In this document: one piece after another, positions 5,767 through 58,861 of the stretch
Layout: every line of letters starts with the position of its first letter
How positions within the stretch are numbered: position 1 is the first letter of the stretch
Source: Gemmatimonadaceae bacterium
GTDB taxonomy: Bacteria > Gemmatimonadota > Gemmatimonadetes > Gemmatimonadales > Gemmatimonadaceae
Reading direction: 5' to 3'
DNA: 64,000 nucleotides
Assembly: GCA_019752115.1 (NCBI GenBank)
Contig: JAIEMN010000053.1
Coordinates: 1 to 64,000 of the forward strand
Program-made: the position numbers and the translations under genes
Notes under the pieces: generated by a model
Databases searched by the model: none
Seen by the model: the letters and a program-made list of their open reading frames with translations, nothing else
Told to the model about the DNA's origin: nothing

Positions 5767-5767
<1 letters not shown>
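5267..5767 (-). CDS. actD: Alternative complex III subunit ActD (DUF3341)
   Basis: Small membrane subunit (166 residues) of alternative complex III. It begins MQGVLGVFHHLDTT, as is usual for DUF3341 proteins, and has a soluble N-terminal part of about 60 residues. Two transmembrane helices follow (around TLIGGLLGVSFGYWVAV and TIIGFEVMVLVGALSTVAG), then a cytoplasmic tail with the family's FSAGHFGVFV segment. Its ATG overlaps the actC stop in a TGATG arrangement, so the longer open frame upstream is an artefact. ActD has no cofactors; it is thought to tie the two NrfD-like subunits together. Confidence 0.93.
5284..5291 (-). promoter_or_regulatory. Strong Shine-Dalgarno for actE
   Basis: GGAGGAGG on the minus strand, six bases before the GTG at 5277 and inside the 3' end of actD. 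It decides the actE start and shows that this organism does use classical ribosome binding sites, at least inside operons. Confidence 0.75.
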
Positions 5768-7224
<1,457 letters not shown>

Positions 7225-7235
7225 GCGCGCTGTCC

Positions 7236-10277
<3,042 letters not shown>

Positions 10278-10296
10278 CGTGATGGAGGGTCGATGA

Positions 10297-10980
10297 TCAG
10301 TAGTGGCAGACGGCGCAGTCATAACGCGCCTTCTTCGCGGGCATCGCTTCGAGCTCGGGCGTGACCTTCTGGCCCGCGAGACGCGCCCCTTCGGCCGGCT
10401 TGTAGCCGTTCACGTGACAGTTGATGCACCAGCCCATGTTGAGCGAGTTCACCTGCTGCACGGGCACGTAGTTCGTGTCCGGCCCCTGCGCGCCCTGCTC
10501 CTGGATCTTGCCATGGCACGTCTGGCAGGTCACCCCGGCATTGACGTGGCGCATGTGCGGGAACTGGACGTAGTCCGGCACCTTGTGGACGCGATTCCAC
10601 GGAATCGGCAGTCCCTTGTTGTAGTACTCGGCCACCTTCTTGATCTGGGCCGACTGGCCCTTCACGATGAGGTGACAGCCCATGCACGTCGAAACCGACG
10701 CGTTGCCCGGATCAGGGGACTTATTGGCGGCGCTGTGGCAGTAGAGGCAGTTCATGCCTGCCTTCGCCACGTGAGGCGCATGGACGAACTTGACGGGCTG
10801 CTCGACGCGCGCACCCTGCGACGTCGACGCACCGCTGTACGCCGACAGGAGACCTGCCGCCGCCGCGAGTGCAAGGAACCCGGGGATCACCGTCCACTTC
10901 TTCTTGACCGTCATCGACTTGGGGGCCGGGAAGGCGTGAGGGGCCGTGCTGTACGGCGACACACGCGATGCGAGGGGCAT
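10297..10980 (-). CDS. actA: Alternative complex III pentaheme cytochrome c subunit ActA
   Basis: Periplasmic multiheme cytochrome c (227 residues) and first gene of the act operon. One N-terminal hydrophobic anchor (VIPGFLALAAAAGLLSAY) precedes five CxxCH heme motifs: CLYCH (about residue 78), CMGCH (100), CQTCH (153), CINCH (187) and CAVCH five residues from the C-terminus. Five hemes is the usual number for ActA. It takes electrons from the ActB clusters and hands them to ActE. The ATG at 10980 is used; an ATG at 10914 just before the anchor is an alternative. It is followed after 19 bases by actB. Confidence 0.94.
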   Translation of the reverse strand: MPLASRVSPYSTAPHAFPAPKSMTVKKKWTVIPGFLALAAAAGLLSAYSGASTSQGARVEQPVKFVHAPHVAKAGMNCLYCHSAANKSPDPGNASVSTCMGCHLIVKGQSAQIKKVAEYYNKGLPIPWNRVHKVPDYVQFPHMRHVNAGVTCQTCHGKIQEQGAQGPDTNYVPVQQVNSLNMGWCINCHVNGYKPAEGARLAGQKVTPELEAMPAKKARYDCAVCHY

Positions 10981-48277: not shown

Positions 48278-51200
48278 TCACCAGATCCATTCCTTGAACA
48301 GGTCGAAGCCAAACTGCCGTCGCGGGAGCTGATCCCCGCCGAGTCGGGTACACGGCGCGGCCCCGGGGTCCACGCCGATCTGAGCAAAGACGGTGGGCCC
48401 GACGCGGTACTCCGCCGCCAGACCCGCCCACAACCGATTCCCCCCGGTGACATCGCCGGTACCGCGGCAGACGCCCGTATTCACCCGCAGGAACGTCTTG
48501 TCGCCGATCTGCTTCCCGGCGGTGATGCTCAGATTGTCGAGCAGCCGCGTCGCCGAGAGCTGGGCCTGGTCCTGGCCGTTGCCCGTCTGGATCTGGAGGG
48601 TGCTCAGCTTCGGGAGCCACTGCTGCAGCTTCCCTTCGGCCAGCCCGCCCACCGTGGGGAGCAGGACGCCACTCACCGCCTGCACCGTGCTCTGGCGCTG
48701 CCCATCGAGCGCGAACGTCGGCGCGCCGAAGACCAGCAGCGAGATGATCTCCGATTCGGGCGCACTGGCATACAGCGGATCGGTGCTCGAGAGCGTCAGC
48801 ACCGGCACGTCGTAGGTGCCGCCGATGTGGACCCGCACCGGGATCTCGCTGCCGCCCGTCGCGCGCACCACGTTCGTGGCGTTGATGTCAAGCGTCGGGG
48901 GAATGGCCGCCTGTCCGTAGAAGCGCACCCGCCCCGAGTCGATACTGAAGCTGCGGTTGACGACGCCGAGATCGAGCCGATACTGCCCGCGATTGGTGAG
49001 GATCTCCCCTTCGAGGGCGAGGCGGTCGCCACTCATCGCGATCCCCAGCCCGCCGGTCAGCCGCACCCGCGCCTCGGGCGTCTGCACCCAGACTTCCTGG
49101 CCGAGATCGACCCGCGCATTCTCAACGGTCACCAGCGCCCCCAAACGCGAGAGGGACTGGGCGGCCGTCTCGGCGACCGGTACCTCATCAGCGCCGAGCA
49201 GCGCGCGCGCCGCGTCGGTGTTGAGATCGAGCGCCGTGCGGGCGCCCAAAGGATTCACCACCAGGTTGGCGCGCGGCACGACCAGCGCGCCGCTGACCAC
49301 CGGACGCTGCAGCTCGCCGCGAACGCTCATGCGCCCACCGATGGTGAGTTCGGTGCCGTCGCGCTGGCGCGCCGCGGCAAAGTTGTTGGCCGCGACGTCC
49401 ATCTGGATGCGCATCGGCTGGTTCGCCGTGAAGCGCAACACGCCCTGCGCCCCGAGGGTGTCTGCGACGCCGCCGCTCCGCAGGCGCAGCGACTCCAGCA
49501 CCAGCGAATCCGCGCGCGCGCGCACGATCACACGGCCGTCGGTTGGCGTGATGCCCAGCGCATCGAGCGAGGCGCCCGCGCCGTCGAGCTGCATGGTGCC
49601 ATCGGCCACCGGGCGGTCCACCGTCCCGGACAGGCCGAGCCGACCGGTGAGCACGCCGCGCAGGCGACTCACGCCGTCGATCTGCAGCGGGAGTGCCTGC
49701 AAACGGAGCGAGTCCGCAATGACCTCGCCGGTGATCACATCGGAGAGCAACCGCTTCTCGACGGTGGCGAGTCGCAGATCCATCGGCAACTGCCCCTGCG
49801 CACGCACCGCGCCGCCCAGGGAATCGCGCAGCAGCGCGTTGGCCACCAAGCGCCGATCCGCGTACTGCCCGGTCGTGACCACCGGTGGCAAGCGGTAGCC
49901 AATGACACCAAGTGAATCGCCGGTGATGTTCCAGCCGATGACCGGGGCGTCGCGCACGCCGGCGAGCGACGCGGTGCCACTCAAGGTGCCCTCGAACGGC
50001 GCGGTCCCGGCGAGCAGTGCCGCGACTTCGCCCACCGGGAAGCGCACGAGGCGCACCGCGCCGGTGACGGCCCCGGTCTTCGGGATATCCGCCTCGACGG
50101 CGAGCTCCCCGCCCTGATTCGAGCGCAGCGTCACCGGATCGAGGTGCACACTGCCGGCGTCCGTCACCAGCCGCAGCGGCTGCGGCGCGCGCCACGCGGC
50201 CTGATCGTAGGTGAGGCCGATCGAGTCGAGCTGCACGACGGTGCGCGCGCCGGCCGCGGTGTAGCCACCACGCACGACGAGATGCGCGTCCTCATCGGTG
50301 CTCACATCGAGCACGAGGCGGCCACTGTCGGTGCTGGCGTCGGCCACCCGGAAGGCGGCGGTCTGAATGCGGACCGCGCCGACCCCGCGCACGTCGTCGA
50401 GCGACGCCGCGCCCTCGAAGGCCGCGCGATGCGTCACGTCGCGCGCCAGCGCCGAACCCACGATCCGGCCGATGCGGATCGCGCCCACCTGCACCTCGCG
50501 GGCGCCGAGCGCCGCGGTGGCATCGAGCTGATCGACGCTGCCCGTGAGATAGCCGGAGAGCGACGCATCGCCACGCAACGTGTCGCTCACCAGGCGGCGC
50601 AGCGAGCCAGCCAACGCCGAGTCCACTGGCTGAAGCATCGCGGCCAGACGGCGCAGCTCGGGGCGCGCCGCCTCGATGCTGTCGGCGCGAATGGCCACCT
50701 CGAGCGTATCCACGTGCCGAGTGTCGCGCCCGAGCGCACCGTGGGCGGTGGCGCTGATACCGCCGAGCAGCACCGAGGCGGAATCCACCACCAGACGATC
50801 TCGGCCGAGCGTGGCGCTGGCCACCACATCGAACGCCGGCCGTTCTCCCGCCGCGAGCTGGTGCAGGACCACCTCGCCACCGCCTTCGATGGCCCGCCGC
50901 GCCAGGGAGTCCGCCGGCCCGCGGAGCGTGTCGCGGGTCGGTTCGCGCGGCCCCTGCGCCGCCAGACGCACGGTACCAGTGAGGGCCGTCGCCGGTACGT
51001 CGCGACGCCCGAGCCACTGGGCGAGATCGAAGGCGTCGAGGGTGCCCGCGGCCGTGCCGTGCCACGCGCTGGCCGTGAGCCCCGCGATGCCCTCCAACGC
51101 CAGCGTGCCGCCAACCGCCGCCGAGTCGCCCAGGAGCACGGGATGCAACACCCCCCGCCACTGCAGCGAGTCCAGGCGGCCGTCGAGCGTCACGCGACCG

Positions 51201-52873
51201 GCCAGCGACGCCCGCACCGGGAGCGTGGTGTCGATGCGCGCGAGCGCCCGCATCGACAGCGGATCGAGTTGCAGGTCGGCCGTGAGCGCAAGCGGTGTCC
51301 GGTCATAGCGCATGCGCACCGCCCCACGCACGGTGGAGACGTTCCCGCCGGCGTCGGTCCACGTAAGGCCGATGGCCGACAGGTCAGCGCTCGCGAGGTC
51401 CGCCGCGCGCACCGTGAGGCCACCGGTGAGCAGACCGTCGACGGCGGGCGCGGCCGGCGCTAACGCGCGCACGGAGCGCAGATCGAGCCGCGCATCCTGC
51501 GCCACGAGATCCCATGCGCGGGGCCGCGCACCCATGGCCACCATGCCGCGCAGTGTGAGGCTCGAGATGGCCGGCTCGGCCCCACCACGCGTTGAGACCG
51601 TCGCGTCCACGAAGCAGGCGTCGAGCAAATCGATCTTGAACGCCGTCAGCGGCCCGCCGCTCCGCGCCACCAGACGCCCCGCCAGCGTGCCCTGCACCGC
51701 CGCCGGCACCGCGCCGTAGCTCAGACGCCGCAGGAGATCGCTGTGCAGCGGCGTGAACGTCAGATCGACCCGATGCAGCAACAGATCGGCGGGACGCGAC
51801 GTGATGGCAATCTGTCCGCGCACGCGCGACGGCCCGCTGGCCACGTCGAGCGAATCGAGGGTGTACTCCGTGTTCCACGCGTCGGCGAGCGTGCGCAGAC
51901 GCACGAGGGCGCGCCCCCGCCCTTCCGTGGGCAGGACATCCCAGATCCACCCGAGGTCGGCCAGCCCCGCGTCGGCTCGCACCTGCACGTCGTAGTGCAC
52001 CGGACCAGGCTGATTCCACGCCACCGTGCCGACCGCCGAGCCCTGCGAGTGCGGCAACTCCACGTGCGTGAGCGCGAGCTGCAGCGAATCCGAGGTCCAG
52101 ACGACCTGCCCCTGCGCGTGGCGAATCGTCACCGGCGGATCCGACAGGACCCCGGAGAGTGAATCGAGCTGCAGCGACGCCGGGCGGCGTTGCACATCCA
52201 CCACCACCACATCGTGCGCCCGGGCGACCCCGATCGCGATCCGACGCCGCTCGAACAGCAACCCGGTGGGTGTGCGCACCAGATCGTGCACGCTGTCGCG
52301 CACCGCGATGACGCTGTCGCGCTGCCTCCCGGTGAACATCGGATGTGGCGCCCACGGGGCCCGCGTGCGGACCTCGCCGCCACGAATCACCAGCGTATCG
52401 ATGCGCACATCGTCGCCGAAGCCCGGGGCATGTGGCGTCTTGCTCGCGGTATCGCCGGCGATGATGTAGGCGAGGTTCCACTTCCGGCCGGTGGTGTCCT
52501 GCTGCAGCTCGAGCGTCACCCCCTCCGCGGCGAGGCGGCGGATACGAATAGCCTTGCTGAACAGCCCGCTCACGCTGAGTGCCCCTTCGATCCGCTGTGC
52601 CGTCACGACCGGCACCCCGGCGGTATCCACCAACGCCACATTTTCCGCCACCACACGATCGGGCGTGATCGAGCGAAGGCGTCCAATGCGCAGCGACCCG
52701 CGCCCCTTGAAGACGCCGTTCGCACGGCGCACGAGCGCTGTGAGCAACCAGGAGCGACCGGCGTCGGTCCCCGTGGCGACCAGATACGCGAAGCTCAGCC
52801 CCGCCCCGGCCCCCAGCAGGATCGCCACCGCCCACCAGAAGCGGCGCTGACGCGGCGTCATGACGCGCACCAT
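48278..52873 (-). CDS. tamB: TamB / DUF490 family translocation and assembly protein
   Basis: Very long envelope protein (1531 residues) with an N-terminal membrane anchor (FWWAVAILLGAGAGLSFAYLVA) and a repetitive beta-rich body of AsmA/DUF490 type. These proteins form a hydrophobic groove bridging inner and outer membranes for lipid transfer or barrel assembly. The C-terminal TamB domain is clear: YGQAAIPPTLDINATNVVR, IHIGGTYDVPVLTLSS-like strands, SESEIISLLVFG-type ESEIISLLVFGAP and GNGQDQAQLSATRLLDNLSITAGKQ split over the last 150 residues. It ends in an aromatic-rich FDLFKEWIW. The ATG at 52873 overlaps the stop of the TamA-like gene (TGATG). Confidence 0.92.
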   Translation of the reverse strand: MVRVMTPRQRRFWWAVAILLGAGAGLSFAYLVATGTDAGRSWLLTALVRRANGVFKGRGSLRIGRLRSITPDRVVAENVALVDTAGVPVVTAQRIEGALSVSGLFSKAIRIRRLAAEGVTLELQQDTTGRKWNLAYIIAGDTASKTPHAPGFGDDVRIDTLVIRGGEVRTRAPWAPHPMFTGRQRDSVIAVRDSVHDLVRTPTGLLFERRRIAIGVARAHDVVVVDVQRRPASLQLDSLSGVLSDPPVTIRHAQGQVVWTSDSLQLALTHVELPHSQGSAVGTVAWNQPGPVHYDVQVRADAGLADLGWIWDVLPTEGRGRALVRLRTLADAWNTEYTLDSLDVASGPSRVRGQIAITSRPADLLLHRVDLTFTPLHSDLLRRLSYGAVPAAVQGTLAGRLVARSGGPLTAFKIDLLDACFVDATVSTRGGAEPAISSLTLRGMVAMGARPRAWDLVAQDARLDLRSVRALAPAAPAVDGLLTGGLTVRAADLASADLSAIGLTWTDAGGNVSTVRGAVRMRYDRTPLALTADLQLDPLSMRALARIDTTLPVRASLAGRVTLDGRLDSLQWRGVLHPVLLGDSAAVGGTLALEGIAGLTASAWHGTAAGTLDAFDLAQWLGRRDVPATALTGTVRLAAQGPREPTRDTLRGPADSLARRAIEGGGEVVLHQLAAGERPAFDVVASATLGRDRLVVDSASVLLGGISATAHGALGRDTRHVDTLEVAIRADSIEAARPELRRLAAMLQPVDSALAGSLRRLVSDTLRGDASLSGYLTGSVDQLDATAALGAREVQVGAIRIGRIVGSALARDVTHRAAFEGAASLDDVRGVGAVRIQTAAFRVADASTDSGRLVLDVSTDEDAHLVVRGGYTAAGARTVVQLDSIGLTYDQAAWRAPQPLRLVTDAGSVHLDPVTLRSNQGGELAVEADIPKTGAVTGAVRLVRFPVGEVAALLAGTAPFEGTLSGTASLAGVRDAPVIGWNITGDSLGVIGYRLPPVVTTGQYADRRLVANALLRDSLGGAVRAQGQLPMDLRLATVEKRLLSDVITGEVIADSLRLQALPLQIDGVSRLRGVLTGRLGLSGTVDRPVADGTMQLDGAGASLDALGITPTDGRVIVRARADSLVLESLRLRSGGVADTLGAQGVLRFTANQPMRIQMDVAANNFAAARQRDGTELTIGGRMSVRGELQRPVVSGALVVPRANLVVNPLGARTALDLNTDAARALLGADEVPVAETAAQSLSRLGALVTVENARVDLGQEVWVQTPEARVRLTGGLGIAMSGDRLALEGEILTNRGQYRLDLGVVNRSFSIDSGRVRFYGQAAIPPTLDINATNVVRATGGSEIPVRVHIGGTYDVPVLTLSSTDPLYASAPESEIISLLVFGAPTFALDGQRQSTVQAVSGVLLPTVGGLAEGKLQQWLPKLSTLQIQTGNGQDQAQLSATRLLDNLSITAGKQIGDKTFLRVNTGVCRGTGDVTGGNRLWAGLAAEYRVGPTVFAQIGVDPGAAPCTRLGGDQLPRRQFGFDLFKEWIW

Positions 52874-55098
52874 CAGAACGCCTGCCCCAGGCCGAAGTGA
52901 AAGACGAGACGCGAGAGCACGCTGCGCGTCTCCGGCGGACGATAGGTCGCCGGACAGGTCAACGGATCGGAGTAGTCAGCCCCCGCCATGGTACGCGGAC
53001 TTGCACAGAGGATGTCCCCCGCAAACGCGCTCCCCGACGGTCCGAAGTACAGGGCACGCCCGGTGAGCGACGCATAGGGGCGATAGCCCACATCCACGCG
53101 GAAGGGGCCGAGCGGCGTGATGACGCGCACGCCCACCCCAGGGGTCGTGCGCAGGTCGCCCATGTGAAAGGCCTGACCGCGCGACTCCCACAGCGTGCCG
53201 GCGTCGAGAAAGGCCACCAGCTGCGCTTGCGACGACACCACCCGGAAGCTGCGACGCCACTCGAGATTGCCAACGAGCATCGCCGTACCGCCACGCGGGA
53301 CCTGGCGGAGCGGACGAGCGCCGTCGTTCACGACCACGCCGGCACTGCCATCCGGATTCACGGTGGTCCGCACATCGGAGACGACGTAAATGACCGGGCC
53401 CAGCAGATTCTGCTGATAGCCGCGCACGGAGTTCTGCCCACCGACGAACAGGCGCTCCTGCTGCGGAATCAGCGGCGTGCCATCCACGAGCGATGCACTC
53501 GGCGCGAACACCCCGGCGCTCTGCACGCGCACCGCCACCACGCCCCGAAAGAGCTTGCCGTACGCCGACGCCTCACCGGTGGACCGGTAGAAGGCGAAGT
53601 TGTCGAACGACGACGACGTCTTGCCGAACCGTTGCTCGGCCCGCACGCGCCAGCCGTGCGTGGGGTTCACGGCATCGTCGGACTGATCGTGCGTGGCCGA
53701 GACGCTGGCGATGCCGATGCCGCGCCCGAAGAGCGAGAGTGCCACGTCTTCCGGGCGACAGAGCCCGAAGCGCGTGCAGGAGACCGCCGGATCGGTGATC
53801 GTCTTGCCGTTCTCGTACTGGAAGCCCGCGGTGAGCGTGGTGCGCGCGGTGAGCCGCTGCGACAGTTCGGCGAGCGAGCCGATCTCGGTTTCGCGGAGAT
53901 AGGCGAACGCCTCGCTGCGCCGCTCACTGTAGACGGACACCAGCGGCACGATGTCGCGGCGGAAGAGTCGCGCCGTGGTGAACGTGGTGCCCACGTAGTA
54001 ATTGACCTTGGCACTCAGCGAATCGCGGCGCAGCACCGGCGAGCAGAGGCTCGGTGCGAAATCCGCGGGGGCGCCCAGTCCCAGCTTGGACGCGCGCACC
54101 GACAGCTCCACCCGGCGCCCGACCCCCAGAAAACCGCGGTCACTGATCCGCCCCTGCGCCCGGATGCAATCCTGGGTGGCCCAGCCGAGTCCAACCCGCG
54201 CGCTGCGCGTCTTCGCTTCGGCCACCGACACGCGCAGATCGAGCGTGCTGTCGGCACCGCGCGCTGGCGTCAGCGTATCCAGCAGCACCAGCCGGAAGGC
54301 TTCGGAGCGATAGAGCGTCTGCTGAGCCTCGAGGAGCCGGGACGCCCGAAAGCGATCGCCAGGATCGAGATCGAGCAGCGTGGCCACATCGGCAGAGTCG
54401 ACCTGCGGGCGCGCCGCGTTGAGTGACTGCACGCGCACATGGACGGCGCCGATGGTGGTGACGTGGCCGGCGTCGATCGCCAGATCGACCGTGGCCCGGG
54501 CCGCGAGGGTATCAATCCGGATGCGACTGTCCGCGAGTCGCGCGCGGGCGTAGCCGGCGTCGCGCAGGCGCGCGAGCACCGCCGTGACAGTGGTATCAAG
54601 CCGCGTCCGATCGAGGCGGTGTCCTTGCAGGCTGCGCAACGGCGCATCGAAGGCGCGGCGGCCCTCGGGCGCGACCGGCAGCCCCCGGATCTGGATGGTG
54701 TCAATCGCGAGTTCCGGTCCCGGCGCGATCTCGAATCGCACCCGTACGCCGTCGCGACGGCGTTCCAGCCGCGGTACGACCGACGCCTGAAACCATCCCG
54801 CCTGCCGATGGAGAATCGACAGCCGCAACGCGTCGCGACGAACCTCGAGGGAATCAAGACAGGGCGGCGTGCCGATATGGAACCAGCGGGTGGCCAGCCC
54901 TGGCGCGGCCGTCACGATGGCGGCAGCCATAGTGAGCTCGTCGAACGCCGGGCTGCCGCGGAAGCGTACGGCGCGAACCCGCTCCGGCGGCCCGCAGCGG
55001 GCGACACGCTGGGCATCGGCACGCGTCGCCCCGCCGCCAACCACAATGGCCAGCAGCAGGTGCACGACCACGCGGAGCGACATCGGGACCCGGGGCAT
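52873..55098 (-). CDS. BamA/TamA family outer-membrane beta-barrel protein
   Basis: 741-residue Omp85-type protein: signal peptide (VVVHLLLAIVVGGGATRADAQ), POTRA-like repeats over roughly residues 25-310 (for example LDTTVTAVLARLRDAGYARARL), then a 16-strand barrel domain. The barrel has the conserved ERLFVGGQNSVRGY motif of strand/loop 6 and ends in Phe (LVFHFGLGQAF), the outer-membrane signature. Pairing with TamB argues for TamA-like function. Unusual is the number of cysteines in the barrel half (six, several close together, such as SCTRFGLC), likely disulfides. The ATG at 55098 is chosen; another at 55083 is five residues on. Confidence 0.9.
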   Translation of the reverse strand: MPRVPMSLRVVVHLLLAIVVGGGATRADAQRVARCGPPERVRAVRFRGSPAFDELTMAAAIVTAAPGLATRWFHIGTPPCLDSLEVRRDALRLSILHRQAGWFQASVVPRLERRRDGVRVRFEIAPGPELAIDTIQIRGLPVAPEGRRAFDAPLRSLQGHRLDRTRLDTTVTAVLARLRDAGYARARLADSRIRIDTLAARATVDLAIDAGHVTTIGAVHVRVQSLNAARPQVDSADVATLLDLDPGDRFRASRLLEAQQTLYRSEAFRLVLLDTLTPARGADSTLDLRVSVAEAKTRSARVGLGWATQDCIRAQGRISDRGFLGVGRRVELSVRASKLGLGAPADFAPSLCSPVLRRDSLSAKVNYYVGTTFTTARLFRRDIVPLVSVYSERRSEAFAYLRETEIGSLAELSQRLTARTTLTAGFQYENGKTITDPAVSCTRFGLCRPEDVALSLFGRGIGIASVSATHDQSDDAVNPTHGWRVRAEQRFGKTSSSFDNFAFYRSTGEASAYGKLFRGVVAVRVQSAGVFAPSASLVDGTPLIPQQERLFVGGQNSVRGYQQNLLGPVIYVVSDVRTTVNPDGSAGVVVNDGARPLRQVPRGGTAMLVGNLEWRRSFRVVSSQAQLVAFLDAGTLWESRGQAFHMGDLRTTPGVGVRVITPLGPFRVDVGYRPYASLTGRALYFGPSGSAFAGDILCASPRTMAGADYSDPLTCPATYRPPETRSVLSRLVFHFGLGQAF

Positions 55099-55299
55099 TG
55101 CGGCGAATTTAACGCCCCTCCCGCATCCGAACGCAGCGCCGGCACCACGATTCGCTGTTTTCACAAGGGAATAATCGCTCCGCGCCGTACCGTCCGGGAC
55201 ATGGGGGCCGCGCCGTATCGCGTGTCCCGTTTACGTGCAGTTCATGTGCAGCCGGTAGATTGCTGCCCGTTGGCTCACCCGATCCCGGACCGATCTTCC
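55099..55299. promoter_or_regulatory. Divergent promoter region, TamA-like / redox cluster
   Basis: 201 bases between divergent starts. It contains moderately AT-rich patches (GAATTTAAC at about 55105 and TGTTTTCACAAGGGAATAAT at about 55156) but no pair of hexamers I would defend. Confidence 0.3.
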
Positions 55300-55989
55300 A
55301 TGATGTTGCTCCCCGGACTGACGGCGGCCCTGCTGCTGGTCTCGTCGACCAGCGCCGTGCGCCCGCTTCCAGTGGATACCCTGCCCCAGCGGGACGTGCC
55401 CGTGACGGGCATCACGCCGGATTCGCTGGCGGCAACACGGTCGACGCCGTCGCGCGTGGCGCCCGCGCTCGATACCGTCTTGCCCGCCACGTTGCTCGAG
55501 AGCCGGCCGGCCGGGTTGACCGTCACGTCCGATACGGTGCCGCGGAGGCGCCCCAAAGCCATCGTCTACTCCGATGCGTACGGCACGCGTCTCACGATTC
55601 ACAAGACGCTGAGCTGGGCCATGCTGCCGTTGTTCGCGGTCTCGTATGTGTCTGGGGACCAGCTGATCAAGAAGGGCGGCGAGGCGCCCGATTGGGCGCG
55701 CAACATTCACCCGGTGGCCGCCAGCGCCACCGCGGTGCTCTTCGGCGCCAACACCATCACCGGCGGCTGGAATCTCTGGGACAGCCGTCATGATCCGAAT
55801 GGTCGTGTGCGTCGCTATCTGCACAGTGCGCTCTTCATCGCCGCCAGCAGCGGTTTCGCCTATACGGGCACCAAGCTCGCCGAGGACGCGCAAGAGCGGC
55901 AATCGCAGCGGAACGTGCACCGCAACGGCGCGGTGATCTCGATGGGCGTCTCCACGGTGAGCTGGCTCATCATGCTCGTGGGTCGCTGA
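55300..55989 (+). CDS. Four-helix membrane protein with regularly placed histidines, unknown family
   Basis: 229-residue protein: N-terminal signal or anchor (MMLLPGLTAALLLVSSTSA), a 90-residue low-complexity Pro/Thr/Asp region, then four hydrophobic helices. Each helix is preceded or opened by one His: TIHKTLSWAML, NIHPVAASATAV, YLHSALFIAAS and NVHRNGAVISMG. Four helices with histidines on one side recall b-heme four-helix bundles such as cytochrome b561, but I cannot assign a family. Five bases later begins another small membrane protein gene, followed by two Rieske genes, so a role in membrane electron transfer is a reasonable guess. Confidence 0.75.
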   Translation: MMLLPGLTAALLLVSSTSAVRPLPVDTLPQRDVPVTGITPDSLAATRSTPSRVAPALDTVLPATLLESRPAGLTVTSDTVPRRRPKAIVYSDAYGTRLTIHKTLSWAMLPLFAVSYVSGDQLIKKGGEAPDWARNIHPVAASATAVLFGANTITGGWNLWDSRHDPNGRVRRYLHSALFIAASSGFAYTGTKLAEDAQERQSQRNVHRNGAVISMGVSTVSWLIMLVGR

Positions 55990-55994
55990 TCCCG

Positions 55995-56516
55995 ATGCTC
56001 GAGACGTTGACGACACTGTTCAAGCCGTGGGCGGATCTATACGGGGACAGCCACGTGCTGTCCACGGGCATCGTGGCCGCCCACGTGTTGTCGATGTTCA
56101 TCGGTGGCGGGATTGCCGTCGCCGCTGACCGTCGCGTGCTGCAGGCCGCGCCGGGGACGGCCGAAGCGCACCGTGCGGTCGCAGAAGACCTGAAGGCGCA
56201 GCACGCGATCGTGATTGGCTCCCTGGCGCTCATCGTGATCAGCGGGCTGCTGCTCGCCGCGGCGGATCTCGGGACCTTCGCGATCTCCCTGGTGTTCTGG
56301 GGGAAGATGGCCGCGTTTCTCATGCTGATGGTGAACGGGCTGCTCATGCGCCGCACCGAAGGCCGCGTCGTGACCGCCGCGAAGAACACGATGGAATTTT
56401 CCGTCGTCGGGCCGGATCTCACGCTGCCGTGGGGCGCGCTGCGGCGCTCCGCCTGGATCAGCATAGCCGGCTGGATCGTCACGGTCTTTCTGGGCGTGCT
56501 GCTGACCAACAACTGA
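55995..56516 (+). CDS. Small polytopic membrane protein of the Rieske gene group
   Basis: 173-residue protein with four predicted transmembrane segments (around GIVAAHVLSMFIGGGIAVA, AIVIGSLALIVISGLLLAA, FWGKMAAFLMLMVNGLLM and AWISIAGWIVTVFLGVLL). Helix-associated histidines occur in VAAHVLSMF and KAQHAIVIG. No named family is recognised. It starts five bases after the preceding four-helix protein gene and ends 44 bases before the first Rieske gene. The tight spacing suggests one transcript and one complex. Confidence 0.78.
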   Translation: MLETLTTLFKPWADLYGDSHVLSTGIVAAHVLSMFIGGGIAVAADRRVLQAAPGTAEAHRAVAEDLKAQHAIVIGSLALIVISGLLLAAADLGTFAISLVFWGKMAAFLMLMVNGLLMRRTEGRVVTAAKNTMEFSVVGPDLTLPWGALRRSAWISIAGWIVTVFLGVLLTNN

Positions 56517-56560
56517 CCGCGCGTCGCCGGTTGCCCATTTCCATTCGCCCCTGAATCGTC

Positions 56561-57052
56561 ATGTCTTCCGAGTCTCCCTCGCCGGCCTGCGTGTCGTGCA
56601 GTGCCCGTCGTGAGTTCTTGCGCACTGCCGTCACCGCCACCGTGCTCGCGGGCCTGAGCACCCTTGGGCCGGTGCAGGCGCTCGCGGCCCTCGAGCCGCG
56701 GCGCGCCGGCGCTGCCGTGAAGTACCCGCTGCCGGCGGCCGACGGCGTCTCCATCGATGCGACGAACGAAGTCATTCTCTGCCGCAACGGCGCCGAAGTG
56801 TACGCGTTCGCGCTCTCCTGCCCGCATCAGAACACCGCGCTCCGGACGCTTCCCAAGAACGGGGGCTTTCAGTGCCCGCGGCACAAGTCCAAGTACCAGC
56901 CCAACGGCACCTTCGTGAGCGGCCGCGCGACGCGCAACATGGACCGCCTGCAGATCAGCCGCGAAGGCAACCTGGTGGTGGTCGATCCGAACGTCGCCTT
57001 CGAGAGTGACGTCGATCCGGCCAAGTGGGCCGCCGCCGTCGTGAAAGTCTGA
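56561..57052 (+). CDS. Exported Rieske 2Fe-2S protein (Tat signal)
   Basis: 163-residue Rieske protein. The N-terminus carries CVSC directly before a twin-arginine motif (SARREFLRTAV) and a hydrophobic stretch ending LAALE, so export by Tat is likely. The 2Fe-2S ligands are Cys/His in SCPHQNTAL and Cys/His in QCPRHKSKY. The second box has Pro-Arg between Cys and His, and the cysteines used for a bc1-type disulfide are absent, so this is a ferredoxin-like rather than bc1-type Rieske protein. It should shuttle electrons in the periplasm, perhaps with the two membrane proteins upstream. Confidence 0.88.
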   Translation: MSSESPSPACVSCSARREFLRTAVTATVLAGLSTLGPVQALAALEPRRAGAAVKYPLPAADGVSIDATNEVILCRNGAEVYAFALSCPHQNTALRTLPKNGGFQCPRHKSKYQPNGTFVSGRATRNMDRLQISREGNLVVVDPNVAFESDVDPAKWAAAVVKV

Positions 57053-57101
57053 GTTCGCGTCCGCTCGCGCTGTTCGTCTGCCCCCGCACCCCAACGCGCC
57101 C

Positions 57102-57527
57102 ATGTCCGACTGCGCCCACTGCCTGTCCCGTCGTGCCTTCGTCGCCAACAGTACGCTGCTGGCCGTCTCGGCCTTTCTCGCCGGGTGCTCCAGCGCGGAC
57201 TCCACCGGGCCGAGCAATGTGAACGTCTCGGTGAAGCTCACGGACTACTCGGCGCTCGGGACGGTGGGCGGAATCGCCCGACTGAGCGGGACCAGCACCC
57301 CCATCGCGGTCGTGCGGACGGCCGCGAGCAGCTATCGGGCCTTTTCGCTCATCTGCCCCCACGAGGCCGGGAGCGTCGGGATCAACGGGGCGGGCTTCCT
57401 CTGCTCGAAGCATGGTGCCACCTTCAATAGCTCCGGCACCTGGACGGGCGGCGAGCGTACGACGAACCTGCGCGAGTTCGCGGTTACCTTCGACGCCACG
57501 GCCGGCACGCTCACGATCACTTCCTGA
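57102..57527 (+). CDS. Exported Rieske 2Fe-2S lipoprotein
   Basis: 141-residue second Rieske protein. Like its neighbour it begins with CAHC just before a twin-arginine motif (LSRRAFVANS); the hydrophobic stretch then ends in a lipobox (AFLAGC), so it is probably a Tat-exported lipoprotein. Cluster ligands are in ICPHEAGSV and LCSKHGATF. The domain is minimal, ending soon after the second ligand pair. It lies 49 bases after the first Rieske gene and five bases before the M20 peptidase gene. The two differ enough to be partners rather than recent copies. Confidence 0.88.
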   Translation: MSDCAHCLSRRAFVANSTLLAVSAFLAGCSSADSTGPSNVNVSVKLTDYSALGTVGGIARLSGTSTPIAVVRTAASSYRAFSLICPHEAGSVGINGAGFLCSKHGATFNSSGTWTGGERTTNLREFAVTFDATAGTLTITS

Positions 57528-57532
57528 CCTGC

Positions 57533-58861
57533 ATGCGTTCCTTCCGCACGTCGCACCGCGCCGGGGCCCTGCTCCCGGCGCTTTGTGTGTCCACCCTCGT
57601 GACCACCCTCGTGGCCACGCCGATGGCCGCCCAACGGCCCGCCACCAAGGGCGCGCCGACGCCGCTCGAGAGCACCGTCGACAAGATCGCGACGCATCCG
57701 TCGGTGGCCGCCGCGTTTGCGTCGCTCGAGCGCGAGAACGGCTGGACGATCGAGCAGCAGATCGCGCTCTGCCAGATCCCGGCCCCGCCCTTCAAGGAGG
57801 CCGCGCGCGCGGCGGCGTACCGTGAGCGCCTCAAGGGGGTCGGCGTCCAGAATGTGCGCATCGATGGCGAGGGGAATGTCATCGGGGAGATTCGCGGCAC
57901 ACGCCCCGGCCCCACGCTGCTGCTGGCGGGGCATCTGGATACGGTGTTCCCCGAGGGCACCAACGTCACCGTCAAGCGAGAGGGCACGAAGCTCACCGCT
58001 CCCGGTATCGGCGATGACTGCCGCGGGCTCGCCGTGGTGCTCACGGTGGCCCGACAGCTCGTCGCGCAGAAGGTGCCGTTCGGTGGCCGGGTGCTCGTGG
58101 TGGGCAACGTGGGGGAGGAGGGGCCCGGCAACCTGCGCGGCACGCGCGCGCTGTTCACCGGGCCGCTCAAGGATTCCATCGACCTGTTCATTTCGGTCGA
58201 TGGCACCGGCTACGGCATCACCAACGGCGGCGTGGGCAGCAACCGGTACCGCGTGAAGTACAAGGGTCCGGGCGGCCATTCGTACGGGGCATTCGGCATG
58301 CCCAACCCCATTCATGCGATGGGGCGCGCGATCGCCAAGATCGCCGATCTCGAAGCGACCACGACGCCCAAGGTCACGTTCAACGTGGGCATCGTCTCGG
58401 GCGGCACCAGCGTCAATTCCATCCCGTTCGAAGGCATCATGGAGGTGGATCTGCGGAGCGAATCGGCGGCGGCGCTCGCCGAGATTGACGGTCGCCTGCA
58501 GAAGGCCCTGCGTGACGCGCTCGCCGAGGAGAAGCAGCGCTGGCCCAACAGCAAAGCGGCGCTCGAGCTGGCGATCGATACCATCGGTATTCGCCCGGCG
58601 GGCAGCACGCCCGATTCGTCGCTCATCGTGCGCACGTCGTTGGCCGCGGCGCGCACCATGAACATCTACGCCCCACTCACCACCTCGAGCACCGACGCGA
58701 ACATCCCGATGAATCTCCATCGGCCGGCGGTCACGTTGGACGGCGGCGGAGTCGGCCGCGGGGCGCACTCTCTCGACGAGAGCTACGACGATCGCACCGA
58801 CGGCTTCAAGGGCCCGCAGTGGGTGATGCTCGTGGTGCTGGGGCTGCTGGGCGTGAAGTAG
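57533..58861 (+). CDS. Exported M20 family metallopeptidase
   Basis: 442-residue secreted zinc peptidase with a signal peptide (ALCVSTLVTTLVATPMAAQ). Di-zinc site features are LLAGHLDTVFPEG, GIGDDCRGLAVVL (the bridging Asp), and the Glu-Glu in NVGEEGPGN. The dimerisation lid (GPGGHSYGAFGMPNPIHAMGRA) and a C-terminal ligand His (GAHSLDE) are present. This is the tripeptidase T-like branch; it probably trims small peptides in the periplasm. It starts five bases after the second Rieske gene and may share its transcript. It converges on gluQ. Confidence 0.9.
   Translation: MRSFRTSHRAGALLPALCVSTLVTTLVATPMAAQRPATKGAPTPLESTVDKIATHPSVAAAFASLERENGWTIEQQIALCQIPAPPFKEAARAAAYRERLKGVGVQNVRIDGEGNVIGEIRGTRPGPTLLLAGHLDTVFPEGTNVTVKREGTKLTAPGIGDDCRGLAVVLTVARQLVAQKVPFGGRVLVVGNVGEEGPGNLRGTRALFTGPLKDSIDLFISVDGTGYGITNGGVGSNRYRVKYKGPGGHSYGAFGMPNPIHAMGRAIAKIADLEATTTPKVTFNVGIVSGGTSVNSIPFEGIMEVDLRSESAAALAEIDGRLQKALRDALAEEKQRWPNSKAALELAIDTIGIRPAGSTPDSSLIVRTSLAAARTMNIYAPLTTSSTDANIPMNLHRPAVTLDGGGVGRGAHSLDESYDDRTDGFKGPQWVMLVVLGLLGVK

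Follow-up and report, generated by a model that had tools for sequence, protein, structure and literature searches.

What is the role of a locus that encodes two small membrane proteins and two exported Rieske proteins side by side? The four genes lie on the plus strand of the window (the whole 64,000-nucleotide stretch of Gemmatimonadaceae DNA analyzed here) and are designated P1 (55300-55989, 229 aa), P2 (55995-56516, 173 aa), P3 (56561-57052, 163 aa) and P4 (57102-57527, 141 aa). The intergenic gaps are 5, 44 and 49 bp, confirming the tight spacing described in an earlier, sequence-only reading of this DNA. P1, probably a diheme b-type cytochrome, consists of an N-terminal hydrophobic segment, a Pro-rich linker (residues ~20-90) and a four-helix domain; P2 is a four-helix membrane protein, P3 a Tat-type Rieske protein, and P4 a Tat-type Rieske lipoprotein. 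An unrelated minus-strand pair (48278-55164) lies to the left of the cassette, and an M20-type peptidase gene (57533-58861) lies to the right.

The genes are kept together well beyond this genome, as the sequence-only reading had asked of a true functional unit. In an evenly chosen sample of 200 Gemmatimonadota genomes, P1 is present in 59 and P2 in 57; 51 genomes have both (Fisher p = 4e-32), and in 48 of them P1, P2 and P3 lie together. Of the 61 P2 genes, 51 have P1 and 53 have P3 no more than 4.5 kb away in the same orientation, and P1 and P2 are separated by a median of 29 bp. Outside the source genus the flanking genes vary between genera, indicating that the cassette travels as a unit and that its linkage goes beyond local gene-order inertia. 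Among 104 distinct loci the most frequent gene orders are P1-P2-P3-P4 (40), P1-P2-P3 (26), P1-P4-P2-P3 (10) and P1-P4 (6); the remaining loci are rarer variants, and many of the incomplete ones end at contig boundaries. Both P1-P4 without P2 and P3, and P2-P3 without P1, exist; thus all four proteins need not belong to one complex.

Comparison of the relatives' flanks revealed no constant functional clue and no constant partner enzyme or cytochrome: the neighbors are housekeeping genes, a sigma/anti-sigma/TonB-like group (5 loci) and a kinase/porin group (2 loci). The former group consists of ECF sigma factor and TonB-receptor-like genes, named by eye, at L092, L102 and L105, and also at L095 and L101, with an anti-sigma gene present in three of these loci; a context of regulated import is possible there. 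At another locus (L165), three P2-like open frames precede P1 and P3.

All P1 matches in the 200-genome sample fall within one class of the phylum. When 84,980 species genomes were scanned for a single P1 motif, N[TA][VI]TGx[WM]N, 107 relatives came to light. Of these, 80 were kept, and the kept loci carry Gemmatimonadota names except for one labelled Acidobacteria and one bacterium without a name. On the basis of this single-motif scan, the cassette is likely restricted to Gemmatimonadota. The Acidobacteria-labelled record (L175) is a lake metagenome bin and may reflect mislabelling or transfer. A search of plasmids gave no match. Three complete, single-contig genomes from the genus contain the cassette, a sign that it is probably also carried by cultured Gemmatimonas strains.

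The first membrane protein has the features of a heme-binding bundle. The AlphaFold2 model of P1 places its helices at residues 92-128, 131-161, 169-197 and 201-227, with pLDDT values of 94-98 over the bundle. Every helix has one His close to its start, as had been noted from the sequence alone: His101 (codon 55600-55602), His137 (55708-55710), His175 (55822-55824) and His207 (55918-55920), all on the plus strand, lie in helices 1 to 4, each 6-9 residues from the start of its own helix and separated by 36, 38 and 32 residues. With this placement, His101 and His175 would lie toward one face of the membrane, and His137 and His207 toward the opposite face. We propose that the first pair ligates heme A, on the membrane side from which helices 1 and 3 start, and that the second pair ligates heme B, on the other side. 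Alignment of 91 relatives supports the expected conservation of these residues: His101, His175 and His207 are invariant, and His137 is kept in 89 and replaced by Met in 2. The two relatives with Met (L177:5968-6477 and L185:2867-3379) are possible cases of a natural His/Met-ligated heme.

The residues surrounding these positions point in the same direction. With the His left out, the conservation moment of each P1 helix deviates from its His by 0, -7, 25 and 44 degrees, respectively (permutation P = 0.003, 0.008, 0.001 and 0.02), and invariant Gly at H1+18 and H2+18, together with small residues at H2+4 and H4+4, would leave room for hemes. The facing His pairs that the earlier reading expected structure prediction to reveal in both membrane proteins fit P1 as far as helix register and conservation show, but are not supported for P2. 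Taken with the predicted structure and the analogies discussed below, these patterns indicate that P1 probably binds two b-type hemes.

Homology searches place P1 less precisely. Taken member by member, the P1 family weakly matches DUF4079 (32/43), DUF420 (12/43) and the prokaryotic b561 family PF01292 (10/43, best E 0.0008, with the P1 of the window unmatched at E ≤ 1), and for both P1 and P2 all family matches lie below the curated cut-offs. We count DUF4079 and prokaryotic b561 toward the heme reading because these weak matches include heme membrane proteins. Fold searches returned only generic four-helix bundles, and cytochrome b561 was absent among the matches listed. The designed diheme protein 4D2 gave Z = 12.6 in the structure search, which is about the level expected of any bundle and was not taken as evidence of homology; a sequence match to 4D2 involves a short repeated motif in the designed protein and was judged to be chance.

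The orientation of P1 is less clear, since two signals conflict. A simple scan found a short hydrophobic N-terminus in 98 of 113 relatives, and this exported-looking segment suggests that side A faces the periplasm. The side-A loops, in contrast, are basic throughout the family (net +2.9 and +2.0), and the positive-inside rule assigns basic loops to the cytoplasm. A Rieske protein could dock at this basic patch; alternatively, P1 could have the reverse topology.

P2 is likewise predicted with confidence as a four-helix protein (residues 20-50, 56-90, 99-132 and 140-172; mean pLDDT 95.7). In 80 sequences His30, Asp45, His70, Lys104, Asn114, Ser156 and Trp160 are invariant, while His20 and His59 are unconserved; only His30 and His70 are conserved among the histidines of P2. 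The further suggestion that facing histidines hold heme in P2 is not supported: the invariant His of helices 1 and 2 are offset in height by about six residues, counted along the helices, and are accompanied by Lys104, and the conservation moments of these two helices do not point significantly at either His. A single heme between His30 and His70 is possible from the residue pattern. Weak matches of P2 family members are to DUF2214 (28/40), DUF6644 (19/40), UPF0093/HemJ (14/40) and CopD (5/40); none exceeds the cut-off of PF03653 (HemJ), and the P2 of the window is unmatched at E ≤ 1. A clear HemJ is encoded elsewhere in the same genome (contig C20), and its profile comparison with P2 is insignificant. 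We therefore rejected the identification of P2 as HemJ and call it a linked subunit, probably one with a cofactor or quinone site of uncertain kind.

P3 and P4 score 32.4 and 31.4 bits against Pfam Rieske PF00355 (cut-off 20.3), and both contain the CxH...CxxH pattern and a Tat RR motif, which makes them members of that family; P4 also has a lipobox, LAGC. These features bear out the description of P3 as a Tat-exported Rieske protein and of P4 as a Tat-exported Rieske lipoprotein. The cluster motifs of P3 (CPH...CPRHKSKY) include the Ser and Tyr of high-potential clusters and lack the disulfide Cys, and those of P4 (CPH...CSKHGATF) lack Ser, Tyr and disulfide alike. In 100 P3-type proteins, all of which have the Tat motif, the second Rieske loop reads CxxHxSx[YF] almost throughout, with nearly invariant Ser and Tyr; where bc1 Rieske proteins have CxHxxC...CPCH, P3 has CPHQNT...CPRH, and the first disulfide Cys is replaced by Thr in 95 of the 100. 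Most P4-type proteins show HGxxF and neither Ser nor Tyr; a lipobox is present in about three quarters of them. Ser and Tyr raise the potential of bc1 Rieske proteins, and the corresponding residues of arsenite oxidase and bc1 have been discussed (PMC3758308); by this analogy P3 is expected to be the higher-potential carrier and P4 the lower-potential one. The nearest solved relatives of P3 are 9rk4 and 9rk3, both named bc1/b6f-like Rieske proteins, and AioB, and a search of solved structures found no relative of P4. Because CxxCH is absent from all four proteins, we rejected the presence of a cytochrome c subunit within the cassette.

Both Rieske signals have an unusual feature, a Cys pair immediately before the twin-arginine (P3, CVSC, 56588-56599; P4, CAHC, 57111-57122), at a place where the sequence normally stays in the cytoplasm or is removed. 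CxxC occupies this position in 75 of 88 distinct P3 signals and 42 of 67 distinct P4 signals, with CxxxC cases in addition. No such pair precedes the Tat RR of the genome's two bc-type Rieske proteins, and a literature search found no mention of one in Rieske signals. A role in inserting the cluster, or in quality control prior to export, is possible. A 527-aa frame elsewhere in the genome (L193:1595-3178, contig G000:C10), which has relatives in the genus, contains two P4-like Rieske domains, with a long repeat-like linker between them, and a Tat lipoprotein signal with CAAC before the RR.

The sequence-only reading held that the unit is neither bc1 nor alternative complex III (ACIII), and that the latter is also encoded in the window. 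The second statement proved right in kind: a molybdenum-oxidoreductase/4Fe-4S fusion (7236-10322, minus strand) adjoins an NrfD protein gene (5767-7224, minus strand), an ACIII-like arrangement spanning 5767-10322. The first is supported by these genes together with two bc-type sets that lie apart from each other in this genome (L194 on G000:C40 and L195 on G000:C43), each comprising a disulfide-type Rieske protein and a cytochrome b frame with a C-terminal CxxCH in addition. In at least 12 of the genomes that encode P1, no PF00033 cytochrome b was detectable. The cassette coexists with cytochrome b in many genomes, including the source, and stands apart from it in others, so we rejected replacement of bc1 as a rule.

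How might these parts work together? We consider it an evenly balanced proposition that the four genes form one membrane-to-periplasm electron-transfer unit, in which P1 is a two-heme conduit, P2 a second subunit, and electrons pass from quinol or another donor to the exported Rieske proteins and on to a periplasmic acceptor. The four-helix P1 would carry electrons across the membrane through its two b-type hemes, with heme A facing the periplasm should the N-terminal segment prove to be a signal peptide or anchor, and P2 may contribute one more site, for a cofactor or quinone, around His30, His70 and Lys104. Menaquinol, or another membrane or cytoplasmic-side donor, would provide electrons that cross P1/P2 and reduce the lipoprotein P4 (probably of lower potential) and P3 (probably of higher potential), which would in turn supply a periplasmic acceptor such as cytochrome c or an oxidase. 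The unit is possibly quinol- or substrate-linked; quinol as the donor, the outward direction and the final acceptor are guesses on our part. Menaquinol is plausible in view of the potentials of analogous hemes, those of superoxide oxidase being -23/+48 mV (PMC11869295). Partial distance correlations of 0.45 (P1-P3), 0.40 (P1-P4), 0.37 (P2-P3) and 0.03 (P2-P4) hint at contacts of P1 with P3, P1 with P4 and P2 with P3, and at none between P2 and P4, although such correlations are weak evidence because of shared species history.

Alternatively, the cassette could supply reductant to a single dedicated enzyme in the periplasm whose gene lies elsewhere, the Rieske carriers delivering the electrons; the logic would be comparable to that by which MsrQ feeds MsrP. 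Exported Rieske proteins without a catalytic domain fit this role, as do the similarity of P4 to ferredoxin-type Rieske proteins (HGxxF) and the modular occurrence of P1-P4 or P2-P3 alone, which suits a dedicated supply; against it, no enzyme gene is linked constantly in the flanks. We regard this explanation as unlikely. Less likely still is the mere clustering of two independent pairs, P1/P4 and P2/P3, with P2 acting as a HemJ-like enzyme or as a carrier that hands electrons to P3. Each pair is found without the other, they follow one another intact in the 10 loci with P1-P4-P2-P3, the weak HemJ matches of P2 members agree with the role given to P2, and the correlation is near zero for P2-P4 and positive within each pair; however, the commonest order is P1-P2-P3-P4, the highest correlation joins P1 with P3, and the true HemJ lies elsewhere with no significant profile similarity to P2.

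A third explanation, improbable to a similar degree, is a superoxide- or radical-scavenging unit, in which P1 would work as Escherichia coli superoxide oxidase does, drawing electrons from superoxide or lipid radicals at a basic patch on the periplasmic side and handing them to quinone; the Rieske proteins would be additional carriers in the periplasm or sinks for radicals. Superoxide oxidase has four helices and two b hemes, exchanges electrons with quinone, and bears a periplasmic arginine/lysine antenna beside one heme, a basic patch that attracts superoxide (PMC11869295); a b561/lipocalin pair guards envelopes against lipid peroxidation (PMC9113575). The basic side-A loops and the prokaryotic b561 matches of P1 agree with this idea, but every one of those matches is below cut-off, the P1 His pattern is unlike that of superoxide oxidase as far as the text of that paper gives it, and superoxide oxidase needs no Rieske protein while the cassette nearly always has a linked Rieske gene.

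If the electron-transfer unit proposed above is real, its importance lies in the partnership itself. Known Rieske partners are the cytochrome b of bc1/b6f, arsenite oxidase and oxygenases; a conserved pairing with a minimal b561-like diheme protein would be another connection from the membrane to exported Rieske proteins, and would illustrate how small the set of parts for such a link can be. Rieske genes of this kind do not mean complex III, which would make respiration harder to infer from genomes. The cassette looks like a small, so far undescribed electron device between membrane and periplasm.

It is instructive to compare the cassette with known systems. In the cytochrome b561 core, H1/H3 hold the non-cytoplasmic heme and H2/H4 the cytoplasmic heme (PMC10691727). 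P1 resembles this core (eukaryotic CYB561, Dcytb) in having four helices in succession, with one conserved His close to the start of each, and in the predicted placement of the first and third His opposite the second and fourth, a register that would suit pairing as H1/H3 and H2/H4. It differs in having four helices plus an N-terminal segment and linker, rather than six helices, and in the linkage of its gene to Rieske genes. Of the b561 small-residue signature (H3+4, H3+18, H4+4, H4+18), P1 has only H4+4 (Ala211), with Phe179, Leu193 and Met225 at the other three positions, and no P1 family member exceeds the PF03188 cut-off (one reaches E = 0.07). Since the signature is present at one position only, we do not assign P1 to this family, although it would function in the manner of a b561 core. 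With E. coli superoxide oxidase (CybB), P1 shares a minimal four-helix, probably two-heme design with one basic side; it differs in its sub-threshold PF01292 match and in the linked Rieske genes.

Like bc1/b6f, the cassette pairs a predicted b-type diheme membrane protein with a Rieske protein. Unlike them, it has no PF00033 cytochrome b (neither P1 nor P2 matches, and the genome's own two cytochrome b genes are on C40 and C43) and no cytochrome c1/f, and its Rieske proteins lack the disulfide Cys found in the genome's two bc-type Rieske proteins. Electron transfer from quinol to the periplasm, as proposed here, would be shared with ACIII, but the cassette has no NrfD, Mo-like/FeS or multiheme subunits, and the ACIII-like genes form a separate set in the window. 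P2 has four helices, as do DUF2214, DUF6644, HemJ (UPF0093) and CopD, and probably shares with HemJ a His conserved in its first helix and a Lys in its third, yet every match is below cut-off. AioB is among the nearest solved relatives of P3, and the AioB of NT-26, like P3, lacks the disulfide; P3, however, has Tyr where AioB has Phe, scores 26.1 bits against the AioB equivalog TIGR02694 (cut-off 95.65), and has no adjacent molybdenum subunit, no AioA-like gene being recognized beside the cassette in the window or in the relatives' flanks.

Compared feature by feature, the cassette does not match bc1, ACIII, HemJ, b561, superoxide oxidase or AioB in full. Our literature search found no paper describing the P1-P4 set; the combination is undescribed in the literature found, and its parts are of known kinds. 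A bolder reading, which we offer tentatively and think rather doubtful, is that the cassette represents a third kind of compact quinol-to-periplasm complex, apart from bc1/b6f and ACIII and known to date from the class Gemmatimonadetes alone. It would combine a minimal diheme cytochrome of four helices with a HemJ/CopD-like subunit, also of four helices, and with two Rieske proteins of different potential, whose Tat-signal Cys pair may act in assembly or sensing.
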